Shown here piece after piece: positions 566-59,167 of a DNA stretch of 64,000 bases. The notes beneath the pieces were generated by a model. That model searched no databases, had not been told where the DNA came from, and worked only from the letters and a program-made list of their open reading frames with translations. Position 1 is the stretch's first letter. Each line of letters starts with the position of its first letter. A program made the position numbers and the translations under genes. Origin of the DNA: Thermomicrobiales bacterium (GTDB lineage Bacteria > Chloroflexota > Chloroflexia > Thermomicrobiales > UBA6265); assembly GCA_019637585.1 (NCBI GenBank), contig JAHBVL010000001.1, positions 186,001 through 250,000 on the forward strand. Reading direction: 5' to 3'.

Positions 566-1939
566 ATGACAAACGCCGTTTCCCGGGAAACCATTCTCGG
601 CCCAAGCCCGAGCAAGGAAGAGATTCTTGCCCGGGTCGAGAACGATGGTATCCAGTTCATCAATCTGCAGTTTTCCGACGTCATGGGAATGGTCAAGAGC
701 GTCACCATTCCGGCCGGTGTCTTCGAACATGTCATCGAGGGCGGCCAGTGGATCGACGGTTCATCGATCGCCGGGTTCACCCGCATCGCCGAATCGGACA
801 TGTTCCTCATTCCCGATCTTTCGACGTACGCCGTCATCCCGTGGGAGCTGGACACCTTTCCCACGGCGCGCGTCATCTGCTGGGTCTTCAATCCGAACGG
901 CGATTCCTTTCCCGGTGATCCCCGCGCCGTTCTCTACCGCCAGCTCGAGCGCCTCGCCGGTCATGGCTATCTCTACAAAACCGGTCCCGAGCTCGAATTC
1001 TTCCTCTTCGAGCGCAATGGCGACGCCATCGCCCCGCTGCCCCACGACCGTGGCAGCTACTTCGATTTCTCCACTGACCCCGCCTCGGTCATCCGCAAGG
1101 AAATGGTGCTCGCCCTCGAAAAGATGGGCATGGACGTCGAAGCCAGTCACCACGAAGTCGCTCCGGGCCAGCATGAAATCGACTTCGAGTATGGCGACGC
1201 GCTGGCCACCGCCGACCGCGCCGTCACGTTCAAATACGTCCTCAAAGCCATCGCCCAGCTGAACGGTCTCCACGCGACCTTCATGCCCAAACCACTCGAA
1301 GGCATCAACGGATCCGGGATGCACGTCCATCAGAGCTTCACCGGGATCGCCGACGGCAAGAATGCGTTCGTCGATACCAGCGATCCCTATGGTCTTTCCG
1401 CCATCGCCAAGCAATTCATTGCCGGGCAGCTCTACCATGCTCGCGGGCTCTCCGCAGTGATGGCTCCGCTCGTGAATTCCTATCGCCGTCTCGTTCCCGG
1501 TTACGAGGCGCCGGTGTACGTTTCCTGGGCTCGCACCAACCGCTCCGCGCTGCTCCGCGTTCCCTCGATCCGCGGCGGACACACGGCCGCCACCCGGCTC
1601 GAGCTCCGCTGTCCTGACCCCTCCTGCAACCCCTACCTCGCTTTCGCGGCGATGCTCGCCTGCGGTCTCGATGGCATCGAGCGCGATCTGCCCCTTCCCG
1701 AGCCGGTCGAGGAGAACCTTTACCATTTCACCGACGACGATCTTCGCCGCCGCAATATCCCCACCCTCCCCGCCACACTCGGTGAGGCTGTTGAGGAAAT
1801 GGAAAAGGACGACGTCGTCCGCGAGGCCCTCGGCGACCACGTCTTCGAGCGCCTTATCGAAGCCCAGAGCTCCGAATGGAACGCCTTCCGCCTCCACGTC
1901 TCCCAATGGGAACGCGACCGGTATTTGGAGGTGTATTAG
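566..1939 (+). CDS. glnA: Type I glutamine synthetase (second copy)
   Basis: Glutamate-ammonia ligase of about 457 residues, the normal GSI length. Visible signatures are the N-terminal beta-grasp domain with DVMGMVKSVTIP, the metal-binding GPELEFFLF, the catalytic NGSGMHVHQS, and the C-terminal RCPDPSCNPYLAFAA. The region equivalent to the adenylylation loop reads NLYHFTDDD, so regulation by adenylylation cannot be assumed. The ATG at 566 is preferred over an upstream GTG at 548 because GGAGG at 554-558 lies 7 bp before the ATG. The gene sits behind another glutamine synthetase and is followed by an intrinsic terminator. A damaged copy of its last ~140 bp is found at 7032-7172. Confidence 0.95.
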   Translation: MTNAVSRETILGPSPSKEEILARVENDGIQFINLQFSDVMGMVKSVTIPAGVFEHVIEGGQWIDGSSIAGFTRIAESDMFLIPDLSTYAVIPWELDTFPTARVICWVFNPNGDSFPGDPRAVLYRQLERLAGHGYLYKTGPELEFFLFERNGDAIAPLPHDRGSYFDFSTDPASVIRKEMVLALEKMGMDVEASHHEVAPGQHEIDFEYGDALATADRAVTFKYVLKAIAQLNGLHATFMPKPLEGINGSGMHVHQSFTGIADGKNAFVDTSDPYGLSAIAKQFIAGQLYHARGLSAVMAPLVNSYRRLVPGYEAPVYVSWARTNRSALLRVPSIRGGHTAATRLELRCPDPSCNPYLAFAAMLACGLDGIERDLPLPEPVEENLYHFTDDDLRRRNIPTLPATLGEAVEEMEKDDVVREALGDHVFERLIEAQSSEWNAFRLHVSQWERDRYLEVY

Positions 1940-5733: not shown

Positions 5734-6891
5734 ATGGCAACATCACTCATTTCCCGGCGACACCTGATGCACAGTGGCGGTGGCGCGATGGCCGGATACA
5801 GCGTGCTTCGCCTGGCCGGTTCGTCGCTCGCCTTCCAGAGCGACGCCGAAGTGATCCCCTGGCTCGATCAGCCAGAGGAGAATCCGGTGCCTGAGGCGAT
5901 TGTCAACCAGATCGTCTGGGAAGAGCTGGACTCCTGGATCACGCCAAATGAGGAGTTCTTCATCATCAAGCATTTCAACGCGCCCGAGCTGAACGAAGCC
6001 GACTGGCAACTCCAGATCACCGGGCTCGTGGACAATCCACTCTCCCTGACATTGGCCCATCTTCGAGCCCGGGAGCAGGAGGAGCGCACGGTCACACTCG
6101 AATGCTCCGGCAACTCCGCCTTTCCCTTTAACAAGGGGCTCGTCAGCAATGCCGCCTGGACCGGGGTCTCGCTGGCCAGTCTCCTCGAGGAAGCGGGCAT
6201 CCAGGAGCATGGCCGGGAGGTCGTTTTCTGGGGAGCCGATGCGGGTGAGCAGGTGTGGCGAGAAGCGACGATCACCGAACAGTTCGCCCGCAGCATGTCG
6301 GTCTCCGACGCCATGGCGCCGGAAAATCTGATCGCGACCGAAATGAACGGAGAACAACTCCCCCACATGCACGGTTTTCCCGCCCGACTGATAGCCCCGG
6401 GATGGTATGGCGTGGCCAATGTCAAATGGCTGACCAAAATCGAGGTCCGCGACAGTCGCTATCAGGGCAACTTCATGGCCAGAGACTATGTCACGATCCG
6501 CGAGGAAGCAGTCGGCGGCGAGTCTGTCTGGACCTTCACGTCGGTCGGACGGGGCCGTCTCAAATCAGCGCCGGCCAGAGTCACCCGGACAGGCGATCGC
6601 TACTCGATCATGGGCGCGGCCTGGGGAGCGCAAGTCGGCGGCGTCGATGTCCGTATCGACGATGGCGCATGGCAACCTGCGACGCTTACCGAAGGCGACG
6701 GCTCAGGTTTCACCTGGACATTCTGGACCATGGATTGGGACGCACCCGCTGCCGGGGAGCACACCGTAACCTCCCGGGCGATCGACGCCGATGGCGCGAT
6801 CCAGCCGGCAGCCGACGATCCATACCTCACGGCCAGGACAACCTACTGGGAAAACAACGGCCAGATCACGCGACAAATTCTCATTTCGTGA
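5734..6891 (+). CDS. Tat-exported sulfite-oxidase-family molybdopterin oxidoreductase
   Basis: A 385-residue protein with the two-domain plan of sulfite oxidases. A molybdopterin-binding domain contains LECSGNSAFPF, whose cysteine should ligate molybdenum, and HMHGFPARLIAPGWYG. A C-terminal Mo-co dimerisation (immunoglobulin-like) domain starts near residue 270. The N-terminus has SRRHLMHSGGGAMAG, a twin-arginine export signal consistent with a folded cofactor enzyme outside the membrane. ATG 5734 is chosen because GAGGAG precedes it by 6 bp; the longer ORF from 5701 has no such site. The substrate (sulfite or another S/N-oxide) cannot be read from sequence. A paralogue with membrane helices lies at 28717-30435. 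Confidence 0.88.
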   Translation: MATSLISRRHLMHSGGGAMAGYSVLRLAGSSLAFQSDAEVIPWLDQPEENPVPEAIVNQIVWEELDSWITPNEEFFIIKHFNAPELNEADWQLQITGLVDNPLSLTLAHLRAREQEERTVTLECSGNSAFPFNKGLVSNAAWTGVSLASLLEEAGIQEHGREVVFWGADAGEQVWREATITEQFARSMSVSDAMAPENLIATEMNGEQLPHMHGFPARLIAPGWYGVANVKWLTKIEVRDSRYQGNFMARDYVTIREEAVGGESVWTFTSVGRGRLKSAPARVTRTGDRYSIMGAAWGAQVGGVDVRIDDGAWQPATLTEGDGSGFTWTFWTMDWDAPAAGEHTVTSRAIDADGAIQPAADDPYLTARTTYWENNGQITRQILIS

Positions 6892-6976: not shown

Positions 6977-7007
6977 GCAGGGATGGTCAACGCCGTGTCC
7001 GGTAGCC
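6977..7007 (+). repeat. 31-bp direct repeat, left copy, bordering the restriction-modification island
   Basis: This 31-bp word, beginning GCAGGGATGGTCAACGCCGT, matches 12560-12590 at 29 of 31 positions in the same orientation. The flanks of the two copies do not match. The copies enclose the 5.5-kb island with the restriction-modification and ParB/methylase genes, and each lies next to a gene remnant. It may be an attachment site or target duplication, or simply a dispersed repeat used for recombination. Confidence 0.6.
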
Positions 7008-7031
7008 GCTAGGTGCGCCGCCCCGACCGTT

Positions 7032-7172
7032 GCCGCCACACTCGATGGGGCCGTTGAGGAAATGGAAAAGGTCGACGTTGTCCGCAAGGTCCTCGGCGAC
7101 CACGTCTTCGAGTGCCTCATCGAAGCCCAGCGCTCCGAGTGGGAACGCGACCGGTACTTGGAGGCATATTAG
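7032..7172 (+). pseudogene. Glutamine synthetase C-terminal remnant
   Basis: About 140 bp closely match the last 170 bp of the glutamine synthetase at 566-1939, read in the same frame: ATLDGAVEEMEKVDVVRKV, then LGDHVFECLIEAQRSEWERD, ending in a TAG stop. The only size difference is a 30-nt in-frame deletion (NAFRLHVSQW missing) between the near-identical sequences TCCGAATGG and TCCCAATGG of the parent, as expected from recombination at microhomology. There is no upstream domain and no start region, so it is not a functional gene. It abuts the left copy of the 31-bp repeat. Confidence 0.85.
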
Positions 7173-7221
7173 TTGCCGGCGTAAGGCCGCTGCGCGTCGA
7201 TTCTCGAAGCAGAAGAGCCTT

Positions 7222-8082
7222 CTAGCTACTGCCACCACGTTCGTTGTAGACCTGTACCCACTCGTCAACCAGTTGGGGAAGTACCTCCACAACCTCCCGA
7301 CCGAAGATGACCTCATCGACGTAGCCCATGTGCAGCATGTCGATCATCCGACAGAGGTAGGATCGACCATCTTGCCACCATGTCCTGTAGCCATCCACGA
7401 ACAAGCAATGGAATGGACTAATTCCTTGGTCAGCCACCAACTGATCTATCTCAACGCCATCAAGCATCGTTGAATAGATGCCGTCAGGGATTTTGCTTCC
7501 GAAGGTGGTGGTGTAGTAGTATTCCTTGACCTCCCATAACGCTATCGGGTTAACCACCCCAGGGAACGCTCCATCAAATCTGCGAGCGAAGGTTCTGAGT
7601 GGCGCGCCGTTCAAGGTGAATGTCGTAAGGTTCCTGGGATCATAGTTGCACGGCAAGTCGCCAATTCGACTCTCAACGATTGCGTTGACGATGGCCGTCA
7701 GGAAGGCAATGTCTTTTTTCTCCCCCTTTTGCTTGTTCATTGGCGGGATGAGCGTCGGATGGAGTTCATCACGATGCTGCTCATAGGTTGCCTTAGCAGT
7801 CAACGCGTCCATGAAGAGGTGTTGGACGGTATCATTCAGGATTTCAGCCCGAAACTGGAAATACTCTACGAGCAACGCGCCGAGTGGTGTTATCTCGCCG
7901 CCAGGCGTGACGATATGGCTGTCTGACAGGCCCAAGCTCACCAACCCTCGCCGGATGTCGTCAATTGTGTGAATCTTTATTGTCTTGGCGCCCCGAACTG
8001 TGTACCCCAGTTTTTCGCTCAGGGAGCGAACGTTTGCCCAAAAGTACCCCGGTTGGCGAAGAAACTGTTGATTCGCTTTCAA
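7222..8082 (-). CDS. Putative type II restriction endonuclease (PD-(D/E)XK)
   Basis: A 286-residue protein whose central part contains RRFDGAFPGVVNPIALWEVKEYYYTTTFGSK. The Asp, followed 14 residues later by Glu-Val-Lys, is the active-site layout of PD-(D/E)XK nucleases. It lies on the opposite strand to a D12-class adenine methylase, with an XRE controller between them, the classic organisation of a type II restriction-modification system. No exact family or recognition site can be named. The start is a TTG at 8082 with GGAG about 10 bp upstream; the N-terminal ~40 residues overlap out of frame with the 3' end of the controller gene. GC content is visibly lower than in neighbouring housekeeping genes, which fits horizontal acquisition. 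Confidence 0.75.
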   Translation of the reverse strand: MKANQQFLRQPGYFWANVRSLSEKLGYTVRGAKTIKIHTIDDIRRGLVSLGLSDSHIVTPGGEITPLGALLVEYFQFRAEILNDTVQHLFMDALTAKATYEQHRDELHPTLIPPMNKQKGEKKDIAFLTAIVNAIVESRIGDLPCNYDPRNLTTFTLNGAPLRTFARRFDGAFPGVVNPIALWEVKEYYYTTTFGSKIPDGIYSTMLDGVEIDQLVADQGISPFHCLFVDGYRTWWQDGRSYLCRMIDMLHMGYVDEVIFGREVVEVLPQLVDEWVQVYNERGGSS

Positions 8083-8320
8083 TTTGCTTCATCTCCGACG
8101 ACGTGATTACGTCACAGATGTCGATACCGAGCGCGGAGCACACGATGACCAGTTCGCCAACAGTCAGACGTCGTTCTCCAGATTCGAACTTACTGACGAA
8201 GGATTGCGGTTGCCCCAAATCAGCAGCGAGGTCTGACTGGCGCATACCCTTCTTCCGCCGCGCATCTCGAAGCACGGCGCAAATATGGTTATCCACACGG
8301 TTCTGGCGAGATATCGACAT
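7961..8320 (-). CDS. XRE-family HTH protein, probable restriction-modification controller
   Basis: A protein of about 119 residues. Residues 5-70 form a canonical XRE/Cro helix-turn-helix domain (VLRDARRKKGMRQSDLAADL, then QSFVSKFESGERRLTVGEL). The remainder looks unstructured and overlaps the first 122 bp of the nuclease gene in another frame. C-proteins of type II systems delay nuclease expression until the methylase is made; gene order here (controller directly before the nuclease, methylase divergent) fits that role. The ATG at 8320 starts MSISRQNRV. An inverted repeat lies 27 bp upstream, between controller and methylase. The overlap could also mean an ancestral HTH-nuclease fusion split by a frameshift. 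Confidence 0.8.
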   Translation of the reverse strand: MSISRQNRVDNHICAVLRDARRKKGMRQSDLAADLGQPQSFVSKFESGERRLTVGELVIVCSALGIDICDVITSSEMKQIESESTVSSPTGVLLGKRSLPERKTGVHSSGRQDNKDSHN

Positions 8321-8346
8321 GCGAGGATAGTAGGGTGATTTGAGAA

Positions 8347-8365
8347 ATATCCCAAAATCGGATAT
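8347..8365. promoter_or_regulatory. Candidate C-box operator in the divergent restriction-modification promoter
   Basis: ATATCC and GGATAT form a 6-bp inverted repeat with a 7-bp A/T-rich spacer, centred in the 83-bp gap between the XRE gene (start 8320, minus) and the methylase (start 8404, plus). It is placed where a controller could block or activate both promoters. Confidence 0.5.
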
Positions 8366-8403
8366 CTTTTCGGCGTTGGCTTGAGATTCTTGTGAGGTGG
8401 CGA

Positions 8404-9288
8404 ATGTTGGAGCAGACAACGCTTTGGGGTACAGAGCAAACCCGGCGTGTAGCCCCAATAAGACAAGGGCTTCTGAAATGGGTGGGGTCGAAGCAGAAGA
8501 CTGCTGTCCCGATAGTTGACGCCTTCCCCTCTCGATTTGGCACGTACTTCGAGCCATTCTTGGGCAGTGGAGCAGTACTGGGCAACCTGGCCCCTCAGAG
8601 CGCAGTCGCGTCCGATGTGTTTGCACCTTTGATGGAAATCTGGATAACCCTGTCGAAAGATCCCGACATGCTCAAGGCCTGGTATGCGGATCGTTGGCAG
8701 ATGATGATGACGGGAGACAAGGTAGAGGTCTATGAGCAAATCAAGGCTTCTTACAACGAAAATCCAAATGGAGCTGACTTCTTATTTCTCTGCCGCGCGT
8801 GCTACGGCGGCATCGTACGATTTCGAAAGCGGGATGGGTACATGTCTACCCCTTGTGGCATCCATTCCCCAATACCACCGCAGAACTTTGCCAAGCGCGT
8901 GGATTTATGGGTGCGTCGAACACGAGGAACTGTGTTCCGACTTGCCGACTATCGTGAAGTCTTTGAGGATGCTCGATCTGGGGACCTCATCTACTGCGAC
9001 CCCCCCTACAGTTACTCCCAGTCAATTCTATACGGTGCCCAAGACTTTTCGATGTCCCAGCTAATGGCCGAGATTGGTCGATGCAAGGATCGAGGCGTAT
9101 TTGTAGCTCTCAGCATCGACGGCCACAAAGAGAGCGGAAACTATACCTTCGAGTTGGAAACCCCTGCAGGTCTGTTTGAGAGAGAATTGATGTTGACAGT
9201 GGGCCGTTCAATGCTCAAACGCTTTCAAAATCCCGGTGTGAGCATGGATGGGGAAGTAATCGCGGACCGATTGCTTCTCACCTATTAA
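8404..9288 (+). CDS. D12-class DNA adenine-N6 methyltransferase of the restriction-modification system
   Basis: A 294-residue protein. It has LLKWVGSKQK near residue 25 (the D12-class F/W-x-G-x-K motif that binds S-adenosylmethionine), YFEPFLGSGAVLGNL (motif I-like) and IYCDPPYSYSQS with the catalytic DPPY. These define the Dam/DpnM group that methylates adenine at N6. It is divergent from the XRE controller and nuclease and should protect the host site cut by that nuclease. ATG 8404 is chosen over GTG 8392 because GAGG lies 6 bp upstream of the ATG. Target sequence is unknown, although GATC is common in this class. Confidence 0.9.
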   Translation: MLEQTTLWGTEQTRRVAPIRQGLLKWVGSKQKTAVPIVDAFPSRFGTYFEPFLGSGAVLGNLAPQSAVASDVFAPLMEIWITLSKDPDMLKAWYADRWQMMMTGDKVEVYEQIKASYNENPNGADFLFLCRACYGGIVRFRKRDGYMSTPCGIHSPIPPQNFAKRVDLWVRRTRGTVFRLADYREVFEDARSGDLIYCDPPYSYSQSILYGAQDFSMSQLMAEIGRCKDRGVFVALSIDGHKESGNYTFELETPAGLFERELMLTVGRSMLKRFQNPGVSMDGEVIADRLLLTY

Positions 9289-9926
9289 TCCAGCAGAAGC
9301 AGCTAGTTCGACAAAATCACGTTCTATCGAAATCACCGGCGGCAGTTGATATCGGCGAGCTCTTTTCCAGATAGTCGGAACGCCATTATAGTCGGAGTGC
9401 CATTTGCCCAACCCACAAAAAACATCTTCATTCTGAATCCAGAGTCCACCACTGAGTGACTCGGAGTGAAACCCGGCCCTCATCTGTCCGAGTTTTCGAT
9501 CTATTTTCCTGGGATCATCTACTTGGCTCGAATGGCGCATGCAACTCGCGGGTTGGATTCTTCCGTTCTCAGACTTGAAGTCCGTACTCCCGATTCCCGT
9601 CTTTCTCTGAATCTCGATTCATGATCTTAGGCCCCAGAAACCGAGGATGAGCCATCTGTTTTCAAGCTCCTCTGCTCTAACGAATCACAAGACATCTCTT
9701 GGCATTGATGGCCCAAAGGGGACCGGGGCTTTGCGAGCAATCTGAAGTCTCCCAAGCTGACGTCGCCACTCTATCGAGGGATGACTTCAATCTTCGGAGA
9801 GAGGAGCGAGGCGAGGCTGGCCACTAGACATCTCCGTTGCCCAATACGGTAGCGGGCGAAGTGGCCGCCAAGGAGGAACAGCGGTAACCTTCTGAATGCA
9901 GAGTAGAGCGACTCAAAGGTTCGAAT
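9289..9926. other. 638-bp gap inside the island; only a doubtful ORF seen
   Basis: No recognisable gene lies between the first methylase and the ParB-like gene. A minus-strand ORF (9208-9540, 110 codons) overlaps the methylase 3' end; it has a protein-like middle (WIQNEDVFCGLGKWHSDYN) but no identified family and no convincing ribosome site. The rest (9541-9926) shows nothing beyond moderate AT-richness, and presumably includes the promoter of the ParB-like gene. Confidence 0.4.
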
Positions 9927-11411
9927 ATGGACTACAAAAGCATTCGTCCATCTCAAGTGCTGCTCGATTCAGAAAACCCACGCCTACCAGATGGTACAAC
10001 GAACGACAGAGAGGCTATTAATCGCCTGCTCGCAGAAGGATACGAACAGCTCATCGCGCTAGCGAGGGACCTCGCGGAACGCGGGCAGGCCAACCCGACC
10101 GAACTTCCTATTGTCCTGAAGCACGATAGCAAATACATCGTACTCGAGGGAAATAGACGCTTTGCAGCGTTGCGGTTACTCGGCGACCCGAAACTTGCCG
10201 ATGACGCCGTGCATCGAGCCGCTTTCGAACGTGTGGCGAAGAAGGGCAAACAGGCTCCAAAGTCTGTCTACTGCGCGGTAGCGGCAAGTCGTGACGAGGC
10301 AGACCACTGGATAACACTACGTCACACCGGTGCGAACGATGGGGTCGGGGTGCGAGGGTGGAGCGCGGAACAGAACGCACGCCATCGAAGACGTATGAAG
10401 GCACCGATCGACAGTGGGACCGCCCGGGCGATCTCGGTTGCCGACGAACTGACAGAGACTTACCAAGCAGACGATACCCTAGTTGAACTCATCAAGAAAG
10501 TGCGCGCAGAGAGGCTGACGAACATCGGTCGCTTTTTCAGTGGCGTGATGCTTTCGGGCACGCACTTGCAGTTGAAACAGTCCACCGACCGAAGGTCACA
10601 GATTCTGTTGGCAAGGCACACAGCAGTCCAGCTCCATGACTTTTTTGTGTGGGCATTCCAGTTCCTGGACAATAACTCAGTCGACACGTTCAAGAATGAC
10701 ATTCTGCGAAGAGAACTATTAAAGGATCGTGCCAACTCACTCCCTGTTACTGCGGATTTACTGTCAGACTATGTGAGACTCGCAGACTACCCATACTCGC
10801 CGACAGTCAGCACCCCGAGTTTCGCTAGCACCTCGCCTAGCGAAACGGACGTCGCGGATTCTCGTGGGGCCGGAGGTCCCCCTGATCGTCCGTCGAGCAA
10901 TTGTTCAGACGAGAGTAACGACGCTACCAGCGATTCTCCCGACGCTTCGAGTAGTAACTCCAAGAAACAGGGGGGACAGAGGGAGGAGCGATTCCTCTAC
11001 TCCAACGTGAAGCTGCCGAACCTATCGCCAAACATTCAGCGTTTGCTCAAGGAAGCTAAACAGCTAAGAATCGACGACAACTACGCTACTGCCTGTGTAT
11101 TGGCGAGGGTGATTCTTGAGCTGGCGGTGTCTGACCCCAAAGTCCTGAAATGGTCAGGCAAAAATGAAAGCGACAAACTTGAAGAAAAAATCAGAGGCTG
11201 TATTCTCAGGCTCGACCCCCACATCGACGTTCAAAGGAAACGGCAAAGGCAGGACCTCGTCCAAGCGAACCTTGAGACAAATCAGATCGGCGTGACCTAT
11301 CTCCACCAGTTTGTGCACAACCCTTGGGCAAAATCCGATCAGCATCTAGCGCGGCGTTTCAGCAGTGCTTTTAGCCCTCTCCTGAACAGCGTCAATGAGA
11401 TGGCTACATGA
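9927..11411 (+). CDS. ParB-like domain protein coupled to a DNA methylase
   Basis: A 494-residue protein. The first ~100 residues carry ParB/sulfiredoxin-fold signatures: LDSENPRLPDG near residue 11 and YIVLEGNRRFAALRLLGDP near residue 70. This domain binds or hydrolyses nucleotides in ParB (CTP) and in several defence nucleases. A helical middle is followed by a Ser/Asp/Pro-rich linker (about residues 290-345). The ~140-residue C-terminal helical domain (ACVLARVILELAV) has no name known to me. Its stop overlaps the next start by 4 bp (ATGA), so it is coupled to a D12-class methylase. It lacks a KorB/ParB DNA-binding HTH that I can see, so plasmid partition is unlikely; a modification or defence role is inferred. 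Confidence 0.75.
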   Translation: MDYKSIRPSQVLLDSENPRLPDGTTNDREAINRLLAEGYEQLIALARDLAERGQANPTELPIVLKHDSKYIVLEGNRRFAALRLLGDPKLADDAVHRAAFERVAKKGKQAPKSVYCAVAASRDEADHWITLRHTGANDGVGVRGWSAEQNARHRRRMKAPIDSGTARAISVADELTETYQADDTLVELIKKVRAERLTNIGRFFSGVMLSGTHLQLKQSTDRRSQILLARHTAVQLHDFFVWAFQFLDNNSVDTFKNDILRRELLKDRANSLPVTADLLSDYVRLADYPYSPTVSTPSFASTSPSETDVADSRGAGGPPDRPSSNCSDESNDATSDSPDASSSNSKKQGGQREERFLYSNVKLPNLSPNIQRLLKEAKQLRIDDNYATACVLARVILELAVSDPKVLKWSGKNESDKLEEKIRGCILRLDPHIDVQRKRQRQDLVQANLETNQIGVTYLHQFVHNPWAKSDQHLARRFSSAFSPLLNSVNEMAT

Positions 11412-12298
11412 GTGGCTCGCTTTTCGTCTCACCCCTCCGATATCCCGGTGGGAAAGGGCGGCTTGCTCCTTATTTGGCCCGCGTTCTAGCAAGCCAATCG
11501 GCGTCCATTTCTACCTATTGCGAGCCGTACGCTGGCGGAGCCGGTGCTGGCCTTCAGCTCCTAATGGACGGGCATGTCAGTAAGCTCATAATCAACGATC
11601 TAAATCCAGGAATCGCCGCATTCTGGAGATCAGTGTTCTTCAATACGGACGCGTTTGTTCAGCTAATCGCTGAATGCGCGGTCAACATCGACAACTGGCA
11701 TAAGCAGCGAACAATCTATCTCGCACCAGATGATCACGACGAACTTGAACTGGGGTTCGCGACATTCTACCTTAACCGAACCAACCGTTCCGGCATTCTG
11801 AGTGCACGACCAATCGGTGGACTAAACCAAACTGGAGTTTGGTCCATTGACGCACGATTCAATAAAACCGATCTCATGCGGCGTGTTAGAAATCTGGGTA
11901 CGGTCTCTTCCCAAATCGTTGTCCGAGAGGAACCCGCAATCGAGTTAGTCAATACTCTTAACAGAAGAAAGCACCGCGTCTTCCTCTATGTTGATCCTCC
12001 CTACGTTGTACCCGGCGAAGAACTGTATATGACAGATCATTCCTGGACAGAACATCAAAAACTGAAGAAGGTTTTGAAGAGATCGCCGCACCTGTGGATC
12101 CTGACCTACGATGACGACAATCGAACCCGACAGCTCTACAGAGATTTCCGTTGTCTGCGATACGGAATTTCTCACACGGCCCAAGTGCAGAAGATTGGAC
12201 GTGAGTTTATGTTCTTCAGCCGAGGACTTCGGGTGCCAGACCGATACGTCTTGCATGATGAAGGAGATTGGGTTTCGTCGCTCCATTGTCCTGCATAA
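11408..12298 (+). CDS. D12-class DNA adenine methylase (second, ParB-linked)
   Basis: A 296-residue protein with SPLRYPGGKGRLAPYL at the N-terminus (the S-adenosylmethionine-binding PGGK motif), YCEPYAGGAGAG, and FLYVDPPYV with the catalytic DPPY, so a DNA adenine N6-methyltransferase. It is only distantly similar to the methylase at 8404-9288, and is more like phage and solitary Dam enzymes with a YPGGK start. It is translationally coupled to the ParB-like protein, and no second nuclease follows. It could be an epigenetic regulator, the protective half of a two-gene defence module, or a second methylase of the neighbouring restriction system. Confidence 0.9.
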   Translation: MSGSLFVSPLRYPGGKGRLAPYLARVLASQSASISTYCEPYAGGAGAGLQLLMDGHVSKLIINDLNPGIAAFWRSVFFNTDAFVQLIAECAVNIDNWHKQRTIYLAPDDHDELELGFATFYLNRTNRSGILSARPIGGLNQTGVWSIDARFNKTDLMRRVRNLGTVSSQIVVREEPAIELVNTLNRRKHRVFLYVDPPYVVPGEELYMTDHSWTEHQKLKKVLKRSPHLWILTYDDDNRTRQLYRDFRCLRYGISHTAQVQKIGREFMFFSRGLRVPDRYVLHDEGDWVSSLHCPA

Positions 12299-12364
12299 AT
12301 ATTGCTTAGGATTATTTTCTCGTCGAACTTTAGGTCGCCTCCGCCGATTCTCGCAAAGTCTGAC

Positions 12365-12560
12365 ACTGACCTTCAGTCGGTTTGAGCAGTCCACCGAGCA
12401 GACTCAGCAGCGTCGTCTTGCTGGACTAGAAGGCCCCATGATCAGCAGCACTTCCCCCTGTGCTGCTTGCACGTCGATGCCTTCAACTGTCCGCGCCGCC
12501 TGACCATGGCCCAAGACCTCGACCAGGGAGCGGGCTTCCACCGTCAGGTGTCCCGGTGGG
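12365..12560 (-). pseudogene. ABC transporter ATPase remnant (LolD/MacB type) with a frameshift in the P-loop
   Basis: Read from 12560 downwards, the sequence gives LTVEARSLVEVLGHGQAART, then VEGIDVQAAQGEVLLIMGPS, the start of a MacB/LolD-like ABC ATPase up to Walker A. A 1-nt loss in the next codon shifts the frame; reading on in the shifted frame restores SSKTTLLSLLGGLLKPTEGQ, the rest of Walker A and the following helix. Homology then stops near 12365, about 70 bp from the end of the second methylase gene. It is therefore a truncated, frameshifted relic at the right border of the island. The right 31-bp repeat lies just upstream of its 5' end. Confidence 0.8.
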
Positions 12561-12590
12561 CAGGGATGGTCAACGCCGTGCCTGGTAGCC
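12560..12590 (+). repeat. 31-bp direct repeat, right copy
   Basis: Partner of 6977-7007 with two mismatches, same orientation. It borders the ABC ATPase remnant and marks the right edge of the island. Confidence 0.6.
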
Positions 12591-12744: not shown

Positions 12745-13386
12745 GTGACGAGAGACGATATGCGGCGACCGCGCTTGCACCATTCGGATGCGACAACCTC
12801 ATCGCCCATTGCTGATGACCGGCAAGACGCCGAAGTGGTCGTGGACGCGCGACGAGATCCGAGCGAGTTTTCGACCCTTTTCGATCGATATTGGGACTCG
12901 GTCTTCGGCTACTGCTTTCTGCGCGTGGGGAACTGGCATGAGGCGGAAGATGTCGCCAGCCAGGTCTTTCTCAGTGCGTTGGCGAATCTTTCCCATTTCG
13001 AGTCACAGGGAACGTCGGACACATTCCGGGCCTGGCTTTTTGGCATCGCGCGCAATCACATCGGGACTTCCTTTCGAAACAAGGCGAAGCACGCGGCAGC
13101 GCCCATCGATGCGGCGGCGGCAGTTTTCGATCAGCGCAGCATGCCCGAGGAGATCTTCATTGCCGCCGAAGAACACCAGCTCCTGCTGGACATGCTCAGT
13201 CAGCTGAGCGCCGACCAACGCGAGTTGCTCCAGCTTCGCCTGGCAGGGCTTTCGGCGGCGGAAATCGGTCGCGTGCTGGGGAAGTCACAGGAAGCGGTTC
13301 GCAAGGCGCAATCGCGCACCGTGATCGGATTGCGGGCCGAGCTGGCAAAGCAACAGATCAGTCGAGATGGACAGCGACATGTCTGA
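12745..13386 (+). CDS. ECF-type RNA polymerase sigma factor
   Basis: A 213-residue sigma-70-family protein with region 2 (FSTLFDRYWDSVFGYCFLRV, WHEAEDVASQVFLSAL, FRAWLFGIARN) and region 4 (LSADQRELLQLRLAGLSAAEIG, then KSQEAVRKAQSRTV). ECF sigma factors redirect RNA polymerase to stress or envelope genes. Its 3' end overlaps the next gene, a membrane protein with an exported NHL propeller, the usual position for an anti-sigma factor. GTG 12745 is the longest reading; ATG 12760 is equally possible, and neither has a strong ribosome site. It lies 155 bp right of the island border, in normal-GC DNA. Confidence 0.92.
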   Translation: MTRDDMRRPRLHHSDATTSSPIADDRQDAEVVVDARRDPSEFSTLFDRYWDSVFGYCFLRVGNWHEAEDVASQVFLSALANLSHFESQGTSDTFRAWLFGIARNHIGTSFRNKAKHAAAPIDAAAAVFDQRSMPEEIFIAAEEHQLLLDMLSQLSADQRELLQLRLAGLSAAEIGRVLGKSQEAVRKAQSRTVIGLRAELAKQQISRDGQRHV

Positions 13387-22957: not shown

Positions 22958-23064
22958 GTCCCGCCCGTTTCTTCATTCGTGGCTTTCGACGGCAATCGCT
23001 GCAATACGAAGCGCCGGCACAGAGACCTGTCGATGCAAAGGGCTGGCACGGACGACCGGCGCTG

Positions 23065-23157
23065 TCGATGAGAAGGGCTGGCACAGGGACCAGCCCGTAC
23101 GGGCACCCCACTGTGGGTGCCCATCTCACCCCCAGCGAAGGTGATCGGAAACCGGCA
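23065..23157 (+). repeat. 93-bp direct repeat, copy 1, with two internal hairpins
   Basis: Nearly identical to 23194-23285 (only a few differences). It contains GGCTGG...CCAGCC and GGGCACC...GGTGCCC hairpins in tandem and ends in CGGAAACCGGCA. A degenerate third partial copy (GTCGATGCAAAGGGCTGGCAC) precedes it at about 23030. It lies in the 380-bp gap after the HAD phosphatase and is non-coding. Confidence 0.8.
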
Positions 23158-23193
23158 TGACCAAACATTTCCGGCTTCAGACGGCCGGCACAG

Positions 23194-23285
23194 TCGATGC
23201 GAAGGGCTGGCACAGGGACCAGCCCGTACGGGCACCCCACTGTGGGTGCCCATCTCATCCCAGCGAAGGTGATCGGAAACCGGCA
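23194..23285 (+). repeat. 93-bp direct repeat, copy 2
   Basis: Second copy of the hairpin-bearing repeat, 37 bp after copy 1 and immediately before a heptamer array and the convergent end of the secreted module gene. Confidence 0.8.
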
Positions 23286-51008: not shown

Positions 51009-51290
51009 CGTATAGCATAGGGGAAAGGCCTGCCTTTCCTTCCCAGGCGAGTTTAGGCAGAGGTCTGTTGGGCGAGAATCTCGTCGCATGCCGTAGCGGA
51101 AAGGCCTGCCTTTCCTTCTCAGGCAAGACTAGACGGCGATCTGCCAGGCGAGAATCTCGTCGCATGCCGTAGCGGAAAGGCCTGCCTTTCCTTCTCAGGC
51201 GAGACTAGGCAGCGGCCTTATGGGTGAGAATTTCGTCGTATGGCGTAGCGGAAAGGCCCGCCTTTCCTTCCTCAGGAAGCGACAATTCGA
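51009..51290 (+). repeat. Four tandem ~77-bp repeats, each with a GGAAAGGC hairpin
   Basis: Copies start near 51009, 51087, 51164 and 51238. Each contains a GTAGCG-like tag, then GGAAAGGC, CT, GCCTTTCC (one copy has GGAAAGGCC...). The bases between hairpins (TCAGGCGAGACTAGGCAG-type, then GCGAGAATCTCGTCG) are also conserved. The array fills the gap upstream of the glyoxalase gene. A GCGAGAATCTCG palindrome occurs between copies. Confidence 0.85.
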
Positions 51291-57854: not shown

Positions 57855-58641
57855 TCATTGGCCTAGGGGGCAATAGTATGTGCCGTCCGGCTGGATAAGC
57901 GCCTTGAGCTGAAGCCTCCCGTTGCGTCTTTCAGGTTTGCATTGAGTTCGCCTACGTTGTTGCCAATGAGCTTCGAGTCTTTCGCCAACCCGACCGGTCC
58001 CGCCGAGAAAGCAAACGCCATCGAAGAAAATGATCAGCCATAGCGAATCCTGAGGATCGCCCGATTCTGTCTCGAGATAAGGTACCCAGGTCACAATGCG
58101 ATCACCGCGATTCCACTTTTCCGCGTCGAAGTCTGTTCAGTATCTCAACCAATGGGCGAGATGCTTCCGCGGGCACTTCAATCACACTCACTGTGCAATC
58201 TAGGGGTAATGCCGTCTTCGTTGTCACAAGATAGAGTCCTCGCACGATTCTTGCGAGAGCTCGCCTCGCTGGTTCCTTGTTGAAATTGTCGGTTAGCAGA
58301 ACGGAGCCGGTGACTATCCCTCCCGGAGTGACATAGTCTGCCTCTTCTGCGTCGTCCATCGTCTGCTCAATCCAGCGCCGAGTGGCTTCATTCGTGTCGA
58401 AGAGTTTCCGAAGATGAGACTCCCAGTCTGGATGATTTACGGACTCAAGTGAAAGGACGATCCAGTTTCTCAAATCTCTGATATTTGATGACATCTCTCG
58501 ATTGCATTGTTCGCAGACATCAACTGTCACCATTTTGGGGTCCATCACGAGAAACAGCGTCCGTGGAATCACATGCTCCTTGCTTAGGTTCTTGTGCTGG
58601 CCGCAATAGGGACAGACGTCTTTTACTTTCCGCTTGCTCAA
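57855..58641 (-). pseudogene. HNH endonuclease gene interrupted by a +1 frameshift
   Basis: The first part (58641-58102) encodes a zinc-bound HNH nuclease: VCPYCGQHKNLSKEHVIPRT with CxxC and H, then VDVCEQCNREMSSNIRDLRN with CxxC and N. It ends abruptly at RRGKVESR-stop. One extra A in the AAAA run at 58117-58120 explains this: in the other frame the sequence continues RGKWNRGDRIVTWVPYLETE, then DPQDSLWLIIFFDGVCFLGG, to a stop at 57855, giving one protein of about 260 residues. It is a recent pseudogene, a sequencing error in the run, or a frameshift-expressed gene. TTG 58641 with GGGAG upstream is the likely start. Confidence 0.8.
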
Positions 58642-59167
58642 CTGACACTCCCTGGTTCTCCGCGCTTTGAAGAGCACTCCGTGCAGACGCTAGGTTAACT
58701 GTTTGATAGAGTGACTTCATTGTGTGTCCACGGCCCACTTCGTGAATGCACAAATGCAGCACCCTCGTCAAGCCGATCCTACTCGCCTCGATGCCCTCGT
58801 GCGAAAAGTCGTAGTGGGTAAGACAGCCGCGGACAGGCTCCAACCATGGGGTTCATGGCATGCTCGCTGCCGCACCCAACGGTGAGCACACCGATGCCCT
58901 CGGTCAGCCGCGTGATGGTGCCGGGTACCAGCGATGGTCGCCCATTACGCAGCGCGGCATCTTGCATAGCCGAGTACCACCGGTTCAAACCGGTGGCTAA
59001 CACGCCTCGTGAGTTGCCCAGGGATCGTTGGCAAGAGTGACCTCATCTCCGGATAGTTTCGACTGCCATCCTGCCCAGTGTGTCACTTTGATCGGCGCGC
59101 TTCCTTAGGGGCCACTCGCAGTCCGGCTGAGTTGCATATGCAGAAGCGATCTCCCTCCTCACGCTAC
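58642..59167. other. About 525 bp with no recognised gene
   Basis: Short ORFs occur on both strands, but none has a family match or a ribosome site. The only clear structure is the CCACCGG hairpin at 58977-59000. Confidence 0.5.
58977..59000 (-). repeat. TTAGC-hairpin element
   Basis: On the minus strand TTAGCCACCGG, TTTGAA, CCGGTGG: a 7-bp stem after a TTAGC tag, matching the GTAGC family in layout. Confidence 0.6.

Follow-up and report, generated by a model that had tools for sequence, protein, structure and literature searches.

The locus studied here raises the question of how a group of defence genes can enter a chromosome without a recombinase. An earlier note on this DNA, made from its letters, had pointed to a 31-bp word that occurs twice in the same orientation around a block of lower GC content, and had taken the place for an integration or replacement hot spot with scars of earlier events. 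We analysed the whole 64-kb stretch of DNA (64,000 nucleotides), which we call the window, together with related genomes, plasmids and viral contigs. The locus is an ordinary, well-preserved defence island made of two known types of system, and its parts are not new. Its features are listed in Table 1.

Table 1. Features of the defence island and its borders (window coordinates).
Feature	Coordinates	Strand	Basis or remark
Left copy of the 31-bp direct repeat	6977–7007	+	Sequence match
glnA 3′-end remnant (glnA tail)	7008–7172	+	Pfam Gln-synt_C, DNA identity to intact glnA
Restriction endonuclease R, BclI type	7222–8082	−	DUF7690 + DUF7687, PADLOC REase_II
Controller (C) protein, XRE/HTH_3	7961–8320	−	Family match
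Candidate C-box ATATCC-GATTTT-GGGATA, between C and M	8348–8365	−	Cross-genome conservation
D12 N6-adenine methyltransferase M, M.BclI type	8407–9288	+	Divergent from C-R
638-bp spacer, no recognisable gene	9289–9926		Pfam, plasmid DNA comparison, six-frame reading
PD-Lambda-5 protein A	9927–11411	+	ParB-like N domain + HEPN-like C domain (predicted)
PD-Lambda-5 protein B, D12 methyltransferase	11408–12298	+	Overlaps A by 4 bp
ABC-transporter ATPase N-terminal remnant (ABC head)	12333–12559	−	ORF matches; frameshifted, cut at 3′ side
Right copy of the 31-bp direct repeat	12560–12590	+	Sequence match

A direct repeat unique to the locus

Both copies of the word were located as the earlier note had described them; they are identical at 29 of 31 positions, with an exact core of 21 bases. 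The genome-wide search for further copies that the note had suggested was carried out with pattern and BLAST searches of the 3.94-Mb assembly and, with up to three mismatches allowed, returned these two copies and no third, so the word is not widespread. It is absent from 60 other genomes of the order (no congener among them), the repeat core has no match in viral contigs, and a 15-base core of the word is missing from every other locus examined. No tRNA gene was found near the repeats, nor does the word lie inside one. Within the window, only two dispersed pairs of direct repeats have at least 29 of 31 bases identical at a spacing of 0.5–10 kb, namely the 31-bp repeat and the duplication formed by glnA and the glnA tail, and both pairs touch position ~7000. 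Such a pair was found in none of 20 Markov-null windows, and dinucleotide shuffles of the window never held two matches to the repeat core at three mismatches. The repeat is unique to the locus. The alternative that the two words resemble each other by chance, for which only their length of 31 bp speaks, is refuted by the null windows and by the missing third copy.

Composition of the block and its broken neighbours

The genes of the island have a GC content of 50–56% against 60–65% in the surroundings, a GC3 of 0.52–0.64 against 0.69–0.77 in flanking genes, and a codon-usage distance of 0.40–0.47 against 0.15–0.39, in keeping with the lower GC that the earlier note had described. Codon usage alone is a weak criterion, because a sigma-factor gene (0.386) comes near the values of the island. 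The low-GC stretch runs from ~7200 to ~12336 and thus begins and stops about 190–220 bp inside the repeats. The repeats bracket the low-GC block, as claimed, but since the edges of the foreign DNA fall inside the two remnants, that block does not reach as far as the repeats.

The repeats stand between a sulfite-oxidase-like gene that ends at 6891 and a sigma-factor gene that starts at 12745. Both remnants lie directly inside the repeats. The broken glutamine synthetase tail that had been noticed beside the left copy matches Pfam Gln-synt_C, has 87% DNA identity to window positions 1759–1884 and 91% to 1907–1939, and carries an internal deletion of ~30 bp. The intact glnA, 5.3 kb upstream, is 87% identical to it, while among other genomes of the family the longer matches reach 71–78% and two short ones (54–65 bp) 87–88%. 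Judged by these identities, the tail is a duplicate from the same lineage; another partial glnA match lies immediately upstream of the window. The broken ABC ATPase start beside the right copy is borne out by matches of 38–51% to ABC ATPase ORFs in the N-terminal and Walker A region, but its Pfam match is weak (0.027) and its frame is disrupted. Both remnants are thus confirmed, the ABC head with weaker support than the glnA tail.

At 63% and 62% GC, the glnA tail and the ABC head are both host-like. As the glnA tail is nearest to the genome's own intact glnA, the repeats enclose scraps of the host lineage in addition to foreign cargo. The simplest reading, that the foreign DNA ends at the repeats, is thereby disfavoured. 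An insert that brought along pieces of a donor chromosome would fit, and so would a later insertion flanked by older scars. A glnA-ABC neighbourhood that could serve as donor context was not seen downstream of glnA in 11 relatives, whose ORF lists were compared by eye. Considering (i) the composition, (ii) the codon usage, (iii) the patchy distribution described below, and (iv) the two remnants, the import of this 5-kb, low-GC block with its two known kinds of defence system is supported.

Three further features of the window lie outside the block. Between glnA and a LuxR-type regulator, a HEPN-domain protein (2432–2905, − strand; Pfam PF05168, 4e-12) overlaps a small ORF (2103–2435), and the pair (2103–2905) is possibly a HEPN toxin-antitoxin-like unit. 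A second low-GC spot (58001–59000, 53.8%) holds an ORF (58102–58677, − strand) that contains CPYCGQHKNLSKEHVIPRTLF and appears HNH-like by eye. Tandem arrays with palindromic stretches occur at 51018–51276 (76-bp unit, 3.4 copies) and 23051–23285 (129-bp unit, 1.8 copies).

A BclI-type restriction-modification system

The nuclease, the XRE controller, the two D12 methylases and the ParB-like protein that the earlier note had read from the sequence all matched PADLOC models or Pfam families. The R gene begins with TTG, and residues D170...E184-x-K186 of its product are invariant. R is 41% identical to R.BclI of plasmid pBcl1 over 289 columns and its full length, M is 46% identical to the pBcl1 M, and C 28% to the pBcl1 C. 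The latter matches PDB entry 2b5a, the solved structure of C.BclI, over 77 of 77 residues, and the pBcl1 system is therefore BclI. The nearest plasmid relatives of R are encoded on pBcl1 (NEB414), pBM69 (B. methanolicus) and pGA2 (C. glutamicum), all of which have the M / C-R arrangement of the window. By homology and gene order, the first system is thus a C-regulated type II restriction-modification (R-M) system of the BclI kind with an M-C-R layout.

BclI recognises TGATCA. Carried over at 41–46% identity, the predicted site of the window system is the same; TGATCA occurs 29 times in the window against 26 expected, and this lack of depletion speaks neither for nor against the site. The predicted fold of R is poor in its catalytic part, and a structural search with the model found no match.

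The R gene is present in 7 of 400 genomes of the phylum. M-C-R is kept in the other carriers wherever the available stretch covers the group (one stretch stopped short of M, and one R gene is divided over two frames), with identities to the window proteins of 47–58% for R and 58–62% for M. The split R (G252:C7:105929-106485, loci L125/L126) accompanies an M that reads through, which suggests that restriction may have been lost there and the methylase retained.

A candidate operator between C and M

The C frame runs 122 bp into R (7961–8082), because the stop codon that relatives have near the start of R is absent; the overlap may reflect either a genuinely longer C protein or a small frameshift. 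Between C and M, a relaxed pattern of the C-box has its single match in the 64 kb of the window. In other genomes of the phylum, the same or a nearly identical box occupies the C–M interval (or the region upstream of C) at loci L119, L121, L123, L124 and L125, and L120 carries a variant. These matches are not independent of the pattern, because it was drawn from some of the same loci; what stands is the shared position of the box in all of them. We therefore regard ATATCC-N6-GGGATA as a candidate operator for C. The pBcl1, pBM69 and pGA2 loci gave no match to the pattern, and a clade of BclI-type R-M systems with its own conserved candidate operator is indicated.

A PD-Lambda-5 system

The PADLOC models of PD-Lambda-5 match A at 2e-152 and B at 1.4e-105; PDLC04007 is the nearest profile, and identity to the other copies of PD-Lambda-5 proteins in the phylum is about 40%. 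On this basis the second system is assigned to PD-Lambda-5, with both A and B present. The N-terminal domain of A, with a ParB-like GNRR motif, was modelled confidently and resembles ParB, Noc and KorB (Foldseek probability 1.0; Z of about 10 across 95 residues, 2.3 Å). In the helical C-terminal domain, residues 364–494 reach Z scores of 7–9 to several HEPN chains, which falls short of the caution level that the tool sets for helical bundles, and no R-x4-6-H motif was seen in the aligned C-terminal part. In their original description, the authors call PD-Lambda-5 a compacted RM+Abi system (PMC9519451); a methylase paired with an effector agrees with that.

PD-Lambda-5 A occurs in 5 of the 400 genomes of the phylum, of which only the present one also carries R. 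A adjoins B in all four other carriers (in one of them inverted) and on 17 of 19 viral contigs; genes of this system are present on many viral contigs.

No mobility genes found in the block

The search for an integrase, transposase or recombinase, or a relic of one, found none in the block (Pfam, PADLOC) or in the spacer (six-frame reading), which upholds the earlier note on this point. The spacer has no match in plasmid DNA or to any family. Relatives at the family level do not share the order of the flanking genes, and a scan of genome contigs yielded no close relative.

How the block arrived

Combining these findings, we propose that the locus is a small defence island gained by horizontal transfer, with two independent systems of intact-looking genes, both of which are probably functional. 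M would protect TGATCA sites and R would cut unprotected DNA, while C, acting at the candidate operator between C and M, would delay R upon entry into a new host, as the C-controlled architecture implies. Methylase B would mark self DNA, and A would be the effector that attacks phage DNA lacking the mark. The cargo (~7200–12336) is flanked by the glnA tail and the ABC head, and the 31-bp repeat borders the whole. In our model, a fragment that already carried the glnA and ABC pieces would have been inserted, independently of an integrase, by illegitimate recombination or end joining, and 31 bp of the target would have been duplicated; afterwards the two copies would have diverged at 2 of 31 positions, while deletion and frameshift eroded the remnants. 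The repeat, the composition, the gene identities and the remnants are observed, whereas the target duplication, the order of events and all biochemical activity are inferred. Of the readings considered, such a target-duplicating insertion is the likeliest, with a probability of roughly 0.55; the identification of the two systems is much firmer. The offset of the repeats from the low-GC edges counts against it, as does a repeat length below that of the published long duplications, and the glnA tail could be left over from a local tandem copy of glnA instead of belonging to the insert.

That last point leads to the next reading in order of likelihood, a tentative one, in which the repeats, the glnA tail and the ABC head are older scars of local rearrangement, a tandem glnA copy having arisen and decayed; a later, unrelated insertion with its edges at ~7200 and ~12336 would have placed the defence genes between them. 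The position of the compositional edges inside the remnants agrees with this, as do the closeness of the tail to the adjacent intact glnA (87% against 71–78% for longer matches in the family), the further partial glnA match just upstream of the window, and the fact that the only two dispersed repeats of such grade both touch ~7000; a separate cause would be needed for a 31-bp repeat that brackets the later insertion. Ranking close to it, and likewise behind target-duplicating insertion, is a decayed integrative element, a doubtful alternative in which the repeats would be attL and attR, the integrase would have been lost, as in a remnant of a cis-mobilizable-like element, and the element would have gained the defence genes as well as the glnA and ABC fragments. 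In its favour are repeats used once, around a foreign block, BclI-type R-M genes that adjoin recombinases on plasmids (a tyrosine recombinase on pBcl1, a recombinase on pGA2), and PD-Lambda-5 genes on many viral contigs. Against it stand the lack of a recombinase or relic in the block and the 638-bp spacer, a word found neither in a tRNA gene nor in viral contigs, and host-like DNA inside the putative ends. We consider it quite improbable that R-M and PD-Lambda-5 form, in this lineage, one self-spreading, recombinase-free cassette that duplicates ~31 bp of target and carries donor scraps along.

The earlier reading of the locus is thus supported in part: for an imported defence island at a scarred site, given its composition, codon usage, patchy distribution and remnants. 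A site-specific integration hot spot is not shown, as there is no recombinase, no tRNA gene near the repeats, no other element at the site, and no use of the word elsewhere in the genome, and as the repeats stand apart from the compositional edges. The locus adds a well-annotated chromosomal defence island for a poorly studied lineage, and its unique repeat and decaying remnants make it a concrete case for studying the insertion of defence genes in which no recombinase takes part.

Comparison with known systems

As in BclI of pBcl1 from [Bacillus] caldolyticus NEB414, M is divergent from C-R, and R and M are homologous over nearly their whole length and C over its HTH domain. Identity is only 41, 46 and 28% for R, M and C, however, the candidate operator is of another type (ATATCC-N6-GGGATA), the C frame extends 122 bp into R, and the system is chromosomal, without an adjacent recombinase. 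The PD-Lambda-5 of Vassallo et al. 2022 (PMC9519451) has the same two-gene A+B operon in which B is a D12 methylase, and both PADLOC models are matched nearly end to end; it was found in a prophage, whereas here it lies in a chromosomal island beside an R-M system. R-M units that insert with duplication of their target, and without a mobile element linked to them, are described in PMC3031569 and PMC3874152; both refer to Nobusato 2000 and Furuta 2010, and the long target duplications are given as ~100 bp. The present block resembles the insertions described there in lying between direct repeats without a transposase or integrase, and differs from them in that its repeat measures 31 bp instead of ~100 bp and encloses fragments of genes.
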